Below, one piece after another: positions 42,488 to 44,746 of a stretch of DNA of 64,000 bases. The notes under the pieces are model-generated. The model was not told the DNA's origin, did not search any database, and worked only from the letters and a program-made list of their open reading frames with translations. How positions within the stretch are numbered: position 1 is the first letter of the stretch; each line of letters opens with the position of its first letter. Made by a program: the position numbers and the translations under genes. The DNA is from Dysidea avara (Eukaryota > Porifera > Demospongiae > Dictyoceratida > Dysideidae): contig NC_089275.1 in assembly GCF_963678975.1 (NCBI RefSeq), positions 49,127,883 through 49,191,882 on the forward strand, written 5' to 3'.

Positions 42488-44746
42488 TTAGATCATCAGT
42501 GACATCATCAACATTACAATCATTACTATTCCATTAACAGCCCATCCTCCTGGTGCAGCACTAGTACTACTATCCCTAGTAGGTAGAGTTGGTATTGTAG
42601 CTGTAATCCTAGGGTCTATAGTAGTTGGAGTTGTGCTCCTAGTAGGTGGAGTTGTGGTTGGAGTACCAACATCCTGTGTATACGTAATATATCAAAATAA
42701 TAGCTATTAGAAAATAAATACTATATATGGATTGTGTGATGTAAATATCTGTATGATGGTCAGATCCTCTGACATGTATAGTTGTTTACCTGACATGGTT
42801 GGGGAAATGGCAAGTTACAAGTCCTGTAGGCTTCCATGGCATTCAGATATATTTGTCTATTGCTACTAAACCTGCAGAGATGATTCATAACATCACATTA
42901 TGTGCTGGTGATCATGACTTACATTGAAAACAAATATAGTGTTTCTCCAAAACAACATCCCAACCGTCGCATCCTATCCATCAGATACTGTCAGATAAAT
43001 ACACTTAAATTATACACAGCATGTAATAAACTACATATTGAAAGGATGTTGTTAATGTTGCTACAGTGGTAGGCTATAAAGGTATCTTATAAAAAACATG
43101 ATGAATAAAAATGTTCTAACTAATTCAACAACACTCTTATGCATAGTACCATATGTGTATCTATGTACTGTAAATATGATATGTATTTTTCTTAGCAGCC
43201 ATGTATATAATAGGCACATTTGTACAAGCTACTAAGACCTGTGAAGACCGTGTATTATATTGGTCTTGGTCTCATATATAAAACTTGTCACAGCTTTAGG
43301 GTCATTGTACCTGAAAGCTAAAGTACGTTAAAGGATCTGAGAGTGAAAGAGTGTTAATTCAAAGCATCCTTTAACAAAAACTTAACACAACACATAAATG
43401 CTACATATTTTTAGACAATAACTTAGTAGCACACATTCCCTTCTTATTAGCCTTTTAGAACACATAGTTTGTCTTGAAAATGATACCTACTCTATGCACA
43501 CAATGTTCACTAAAGATCTATATATGTAATTGCAGTATACTACTGTACACCAGCTTACGTTAGTACAACCTGCTGGACACTGTCCTGGAGTGGTGACCAC
43601 ACAAACTCCTTCATTATTATTCATCTGAAGCAATCATATAATAGATAGATCTAACACTACATGTATATGCTTACATCATCATCAAGATCATTGAACACTT
43701 GAGCACAATTGTCTCCATCTGGTTGTCTGCCACAGGCAAGACGATATCCAAGCTCGGCAGTATCAGCCTATCATAATATCAATACTACACATGAAATAAT
43801 ATTATGTTGCTGCTGCTGCTGCTGCTGCTGCTGCTGCTGCTGCTGCTGCTGCTGCTGCTGCTGCTGCTGCTGCTGCTGCTGCTGCTGCTGCTGCTGCTGC
43901 TGCTGCTGCTGCTGCTGCTGCTGCTGCTGCTGCTGCTGCTGCTGCTGCTGCTGCTGCTGCTGCTGCTGCTGCTGCTGCTGCTGCTGCTGCTGCTGCTGCT
44001 GCTGCTGCTGCTGCTGCTGCTGCTGCTGCTGCTGCTGCTGCTGCTGCTGCTGCTGCTGCTGCTGCTGCTGCTGCTGCTGCTGCTGCTGCTGCTGCTGCTG
44101 CTGCTGCTGCTGCTGCTGCTGCTGCTGCTGCTGCTGCTGCTGCTGCTGCTGCTGCTGCTGCTGCTGCTGCTGCTGCTGCTGCTGCTGCTGCTGCTGCTGC
44201 TGCTGCTGCTGCTGCTGCTGCTGCTGCTGCTGCTGCTGCTGCTGCTGCTGCTGCTGCTGCTGCTGCTGCTGCTGCTGCTGCTGCTGCTGCTGCTGCTGCT
44301 GCTGCTGCTGCTGCTGCTGCTGCTGCTGCTGCTGCTGCTGCTGCTGCTGCTGCTGCTGCTGCTGCTGCTGCTGCTGCTGCTGCTGCTGCTGCTGCTGCTG
44401 CTGCTGCTGCTGCTGCTGCTGCTGCTGCTGCTGCTGCTGCTGCTGCTGCTGCTGCTGCTGCTGCTGCTGCTGCTGTACTTACATTTGCACCAAAACAACG
44501 ACGAACAACAGGGCTAAATCGATCCCAACATGATGTAGAGCAGACTTCATCAAGAGTTGACTGAGGAAGATCAAAGAAATTCCGAGTAGTGATTAAGGTG
44601 TTGAGTTGAGAACCACAAGTACGGTCCACCCTTGAAATATCATTCACTCCATTAATCAAACACAGCCCTATTTCAAAACTAGATTGACTATTCACACCAT
44701 TCAGTGTGATGACCATTATCAGTAGACCAGCTAGTGACATCTCCAT
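42488..44746 (-). CDS. Gene A: secreted cysteine-rich protein with hydrophobic tail
   Basis: Six exons join in phase: 44483-44746, 43675-43767, 43559-43624, 42923-42987, 42790-42871 and 42488-42673 (251 residues). Exon 1 starts with a signal peptide (MEMSLAGLLIMVITLNGVNSQ). The mature region has 14 cysteines, with conserved blocks LPQSTLDEVCSTSCWDRF, ELGYRLACGRQPDGDNCAQVF, GQCPAGC, LGCCFGETLYLFSM and YRTCNLPFPQPCQ. Exon 6 is a Thr/Pro-rich stalk followed by GGWAVNGIVM and a hydrophobic end with no cytosolic tail, as expected of a GPI-anchored or tail-anchored surface protein. Exon order, intron phases and cysteines match gene C (55028-56491). Intron 1 contains the 666-bp CTG/CAG tract. I do not recognise the family; function is unknown. 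Confidence 0.9.
43625..43674 (-). other. 50-bp intron 2 of gene A
   Basis: GTAAGC donor and TTCAG acceptor on the - strand, only 50 bp long. It is one of several very short introns in this gene (intron 4, 42872-42922, is 51 bp), showing how compact the gene is apart from the expanded intron 1. Confidence 0.85.
43808..44475. repeat. Uninterrupted (CTG)222 tract, CAG on the sense strand of gene A
   Basis: From 43810 to 44475 the + strand is pure CTG, 222 units, with no interruption visible. It lies inside intron 1 of gene A, starting 6-7 bases after the GT of the splice donor (GTAAGTA then CAG repeats, sense strand) and ending about 40 bp before the acceptor. Without the tract the intron would be about 50 bp. 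The long poly-Ala, poly-Ser, poly-Leu and poly-Cys ORFs over this region are frames of the repeat, not genes. Confidence 0.95.

Follow-up and report, generated by a model that had tools for sequence, protein, structure and literature searches.

A pure CAG tract of about 223 units in a sponge gene's first coding intron, one among hundreds of such runs in the assembly

The first coding intron of a gene in the sponge Dysidea avara carries an uninterrupted CAG tract of 222.67 units, which is one among hundreds of such runs in the assembly. We consider it likely that the tract is an expanded microsatellite that grew within a minimal intron, the genome as a whole being permissive for CAG/CTG growth, and that it is spliced out with its intron and nearly neutral. 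On this best reading it is a microsatellite without machinery of its own and not an element, and it is probably tolerated rather than regulatory. The reading builds on what was observed directly, namely the sequence and the place of the tract, a repeat-free paralogue, the abundance of similar runs, flanks free of the CAG-bearing element, empty homologous sites elsewhere and the layout of an intron in the gene for splicing factor 3B subunit 3 (SF3B3).

The window, by which we mean the whole stretch of 64,000 nucleotides that was analysed, corresponds to C4:49127883-49191882 in an assembly of 550,814,596 bases in 108 contigs. Its positions 43808-44475 are a perfect (TGC)n array on the forward strand, 668 bp long and of complete identity when read by script; TRF returned the same array at 43808-44475 with 100% matches. 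The initial annotation had described a pure CAG/CTG tract of 222 units, and this was borne out; its length of 666 bp counted whole units only, the full span being 668 bp. With 222.67 units at 100% purity the tract lies above the limit taken here for an expanded non-coding CAG/CTG tract of the TCF4 CTG18.1 type (more than 50 uninterrupted units), and the donor and acceptor consensus together with paralogue C place it in an intron. The features of the tract, of its host (gene A) and of the two paralogues are as follows.

43808..44475, minus strand: CAG tract on the gene strand, 222.67 units, 668 bp, uninterrupted (script and TRF)
44483..44746, minus strand: gene A, coding exon 1, with hydrophobic N-terminus, rich in cysteine
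43768..44482, minus strand: gene A, first coding intron, 715 bp, GTAAGT donor, AG acceptor, phase 0 (consensus and homology to gene C)
43675..43767, minus strand: gene A, exon 2
43559..43624, minus strand: gene A, exon 3
42923..42987, minus strand: gene A, exon 4
42790..42871, minus strand: gene A, exon 5
42488..42673, minus strand: gene A, exon 6, with hydrophobic C-terminus and stop
43802..44755, minus strand: open frame if intron 1 is retained, 317 amino acids from stop to stop
55028..56491, plus strand: gene C, paralogue with six exons; its intron 1 (55274-55365) has 92 bp and no repeat
49530..53113, plus strand: gene B, decayed paralogue with in-frame stops, exon 2 unmatched

The splice sites of gene A were assigned from consensus and from mutual homology with the paralogue, and "intron 1" always means the first coding intron. 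On the minus strand exon 1 ends in GGTGCAAAT and is followed by the donor GTAAGTA, the CAG tract, ACATAATATTATTTCATGTGTAGTATTGATATTATGATAG up to the acceptor, and GCTGATACT as the beginning of exon 2. The tract begins at +8 of the intron, just past the donor as had been proposed, and leaves 40 nt between its end and the acceptor. Without it intron 1 would have 47 bp, which is near the 50 and 51 bp calculated from the exon coordinates for introns 2 and 4. The counterpart intron in gene C does, as claimed before, have 92 bp and no repeat; the two introns share their phase-0 position, and at the place matching the tract the gene C intron has no CAG.

The six coding exons of gene A give a predicted protein of 251 amino acids with many cysteines and a hydrophobic start and end, which may be secreted or GPI-anchored. 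Genes A and C, with gene B sitting between them, are 53% identical in the alignment of their products and 46% identical by BLASTP. Neither A nor C has a Pfam match at E values up to 1; gene A found nothing better than E 0.64 in the PDB, gene C had no match in IMG/VR, and the alignment of both had none in the GTDB contigs.

The window holds other features besides. The stretch 36586-38555 has two arms that appear by eye to be reverse complements, with GGTCATTCCATACCAAATCAAC at either end; it is probably a long inverted-repeat element. An open frame of 992 codons at 18890-21868 has NACHT and leucine-rich repeats and is NLR-like, an open frame for a reverse transcriptase (RVT_1) occupies 30463-32058, and in 25448-25791 a 31-bp unit with TAGCTGAACTCTCTA is repeated about 11 times.

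In the whole assembly (CAG)10 has 25,554 overlapping matches in 3-base steps, 11,937 forward and 13,617 reverse, versus 1 match of the backward control (GAC)10. Chance is excluded as the origin of the tract, since these two numbers differ so much and since the runner-up among CAG-like runs found by script in the 64-kb window has only 18 bp. Counted by their starts, pure runs with 10 or more units number 130 in phase C (61 + 69; none for the backward control) and 143 in phase A (69 + 74; 1 for the backward control). Since the total of 273 covers two of the three phases, we estimate about 400 runs in the assembly, either from three equal phases or as the quotient of 25,554 and the mean excess (about 65) in the sample described below; the two calculations agree, and a few neighbouring run starts are parts of one interrupted array. 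In 18 spot stretches outside the window, amounting to 175 kb without N, there are 8 pure runs of at least 20 bp with a unit of 1-6 bp (7 by script plus a (CA)10 in L027), none of them CAG, and the sole CAG-type run of at least 4 units has 12 bp. That the permissiveness may be specific for CAG is judged from the ACG-class control and these 175 kb of spot samples. Other units also form long pure runs, as is seen from one of the 8, a pure (AGGC)63 at L015:6481-6732. For comparison, (CAG)30 was found in 3 of the 2.9 million contigs of IMG/VR. Among the titles and abstract openings searched, which cover few subscription journals, none describes long CAG runs throughout the genome of a sponge.

From the 100 listed of the 130 phase-C starts we took 40 as a sample (even-numbered entries 2-82, the window tract left out), extracted 1.4 kb per locus and measured the longest pure run in each. 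The median is 48, the mean 74.0 and the maximum 240.7 units; 20 of the 40 runs have at least 50 units, 11 have at least 100, and two are longer than the window tract (L049 with 240.7 and L072 with 231.0 units). Single uninterrupted arrays make up 24 of the 40, the other 16 being interrupted. The initial annotation had placed the tract in the pathogenic range. Its length does match that of human non-coding expansions, but this is less telling in a genome in which 11 of 40 sampled runs reach 100 units.

Such runs occupy various places: introns, a mobile element, a probable coding polyglutamine and sequence upstream of genes. About 165 bp separate the end of L060 from the ATG of a frame that by eye resembles a GPN-loop GTPase, and about 235 bp separate the end of L069 from one that by eye resembles an F-box protein. 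At L009:2406-2540, outside the sample of 40, there are 45 pure CAG units, around which the glutamine frame has 222 open codons on one side and 198 on the other; they probably encode a polyglutamine as long as those seen in disease. A GTRAGT aimed into the run from a distance of at most 30 bp occurs in two of the 40 (L062 and L071). An enrichment of CAG runs next to donors was considered and rejected: two cases are too few, gene homology backs L071 only, and L062 is part of a repeat that L039 has too.

Sixteen of the 40 sampled runs sit in one dispersed inverted-repeat element, membership being judged by homology of both flanks, and 24 do not. The copies are L033-L038, L042, L044, L050, L051, L053-L055, L058, L061 and L065; L032 is a further copy outside the sample. 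They have terminal inverted repeats beginning with GGCCACTACAATGAGATAACTTG, and by eye TTA/TAA target duplications are seen in L032, L037 and L051, a pattern that is PIF/Harbinger-like. It looks non-autonomous and would be a mobile source of CAG runs. The 24 runs outside it include L039 and L062 with their shared repeat, and the flanks of L039, L041, L046, L047, L049 and L052 have matches to further dispersed repeats, located in the spot stretches or in the window, so that "outside the CAG element" does not equal unique DNA.

Within the element the array sits at one internal place, and its length in the 16 sampled copies ranges from 10.7 to 202 units, which means that lengths have changed between copies (these were chosen for at least 10 units, so shorter ones are unrepresented). 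A second case is L041, where a run of 34.7 units lies inside a repeat whose homologues L013 and L016 have no tract and read ACAACAGC and ACAAAT at its place. Hence one long run, if not more, came into being at a place where relatives hold a single CAG or none. Both the spread of lengths in the element and L041 are compatible with growth in place.

For the window tract we infer a seed, an expansion process, normal splicing and near-neutrality. A short CAG seed within the minimal intron of gene A, of about 50 nt, would have been the start, and repeated slippage or hairpin-mediated expansion, both known from CAG/CTG biology, would have brought it to about 223 units. Because the gene C intron has no CAG at this place, a replacement instead of growth is also possible. 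The tract would be transcribed as CAG RNA inside intron 1 and most probably removed with it, since donor and acceptor are outside the tract and the branch point is presumably in the last 40 nt; the tract has no U and thus offers neither a pyrimidine tract nor a usual branch point.

A second CAG-bearing intron, in the gene for SF3B3, bears on whether such introns are spliced.

C8:32624660-32626060: L071, a CAG tract of 52.7 units in a short SF3B3 intron

When joined, the exons flanking this tract have splicing factor 3B subunit 3 as their match (7b0i_A, phmmer E 9.1e-62 over query residues 9-128). The intron has 200 bp, of which the tract takes 158 bp and leaves 42 bp; the tract begins at +12, and 31 nt separate its end from the acceptor, a layout like that of gene A intron 1. 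SF3B3 is needed in other eukaryotes. If it is needed here too, the intron must be spliced well enough, and CAG next to a donor would not in itself be fatal. By this analogy such CAG-bearing introns are probably spliced; for gene A the argument is partial, as the SF3B3 tract is four times shorter.

Folding with ViennaRNA had the CAG tract pairing with itself and gave a donor openness of 0.72 with the tract versus 0.34 without it, and a path from donor to acceptor of 30-31 nt for 10 to 222 units versus 25 for the tract-free intron. An unstructured CAA fill gave the same values as the tract (path 30, donor openness 0.76), so the predicted effect stems from the flanks. With 20 native fills of 668 bp the path ranged from 26 to 122 (mean 63.6) at a mean donor openness of 0.50. 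In the SF3B3 intron the path rose from 6 without to 38-41 with the tract, and the donor openness was steady at 0.45. The idea that CAG hairpins loop out and bring donor and acceptor close was therefore dropped: the CAA fill equals the tract, and L071 shows the opposite trend. In silico no pairing between tract and donor is seen, and the tract looks inert there rather than specially helpful.

Repeats of CAG or CTG that lie within an intron or close to one are able to disturb splicing (PMC6160442, PMC7988464). A switch dependent on length, modelled on CAG length in HTT exon 1 and CTG length in TCF4, is the alternative that fares best, though we think it unlikely. The CAG next to the donor would slow splicing of intron 1, and transcripts that retain it, ending in a poly-alanine frame with a stop, would lower or tune the secreted gene A product. 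When intron 1 is retained, the frame indeed runs openly from exon 1 through V-S-T and about 222 alanines to a threonine and then a stop. In HTT splicing of exon 1 to exon 2 is described as incomplete depending on CAG length and as modulated by SRSF6 (PMC6160442), and GC-rich expansion introns are reported to be retained (PMC7988464). Against a switch speak the 52.7 units in matching layout in SF3B3, a core splicing gene, and the predicted donor openness, which the tract does not worsen. The initial annotation had suggested that the tract may act on splicing, RNA foci or repair, and by the precedents of HTT and TCF4 a regulatory or harmful effect is possible; the preferred reading is still that of a microsatellite removed with its intron.

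Next comes an assembly artefact, in which the true tract would be shorter or interrupted and the assembler would have inflated it or polished it pure. The initial annotation had raised this concern, and long pure repeats are indeed prone to error; stretches of N also exist in the assembly (5,000 N in L027). Yet the contigs are chromosome-sized (C4 has 50 Mb), the window is free of N by script, run lengths and flanks are many and varied, 16 of 40 arrays are interrupted, and L009 provides an in-frame coding example. An artefact would have to fake all these features, and we hold it for quite improbable.

More improbable still is that intron 1 received a copy of the CAG-bearing inverted-repeat element, which later lost its ends. 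Such an element holds the 16 of 40 sampled runs, an element-borne CAG array (L032, C4:49212600-49216000) lies 42 kb from the window tract, and the left edge reads GTACAGCAG in the window tract and in element contexts alike. The flanks of the window tract, however, match on both sides only paralogues B and C in the tract loci and 239 kb of genome, and a search of the whole assembly with the upstream and exon 1 side returned one copy plus the matches in genes C and B. Nor do the 47 bp of remaining intron contain element sequence or an inverted repeat. The tract is thus not framed on both sides by a dispersed element in the sequence searched (tract loci and 239 kb; the upstream side genome-wide), and we rejected a mobile-element origin. 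The L032 array itself lies about 300 bp upstream of a broken copy resembling gene C, the exon 1 of which is interrupted by a repeat with 90% identity to positions 632-1134 of the window.

That the tract is exonic, a translated poly-alanine expansion, is hardly credible: the frame is open through the tract but stops at once past it, losing five exons that can be aligned to gene C (53% identity overall), a GTAAGT donor stands at the position of the gene C donor, and there is no open frame on both sides within a conserved protein, in contrast to L009.

Among known systems, the intronic CTG18.1 repeat of TCF4 in Fuchs corneal dystrophy is like the window tract in being a CAG/CTG run within an intron; expanded alleles have 50 to over 1500 units (PMC7988464). 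The sense RNA in TCF4 is CUG, and long alleles are uncommon and confined to one locus, whereas here the sense RNA is CAG and the tract is one of several hundred. HTT likewise has a CAG run close to the donor of the first intron (PMC6160442). There the repeat belongs to the coding sequence and lies upstream of the donor, whereas the window tract is intronic and downstream of it, and a link to failing splicing is described for HTT only. Long simple repeats throughout the genome are shared with Atlantic cod, where they were resolved by long reads; dinucleotides are the largest class there, with 48.7% of the repeats and a mean of 84 bp (PMC5241972), whereas our sample consists of CAG/CTG runs with a mean of 74 units (n = 40).

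For the CAG element, the parallel is with mobile elements that bear microsatellites, mini-me among them. In Drosophila a dispersed element of the DINE-1 type carries and spreads a microsatellite (PMC2374699, PMC4067079). The parallel with mini-me and DINE-1 suits the 16 of 40 other tracts and not the window tract.

In people CAG/CTG runs of at least 50 units are hazardous and uncommon. We put forward, tentatively and as the less probable case, that a brake on CAG/CTG expansion is missing or changed in this animal. Pure runs of disease length throughout the genome would then be normal, and the splicing and RNA-binding machinery would be tolerant of them, even in the gene for SF3B3. With its hundreds of long pure runs, such a genome would serve as a natural test of restraint or tolerance. 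At least two of the runs are intronic, one of them in a core splicing gene, and they would allow one to ask whether an intron consisting almost wholly of CAG can be spliced, which repair proteins differ in this animal and whether the runs vary between its cells. The window tract would mainly be a clean entry point to this genome-wide question.
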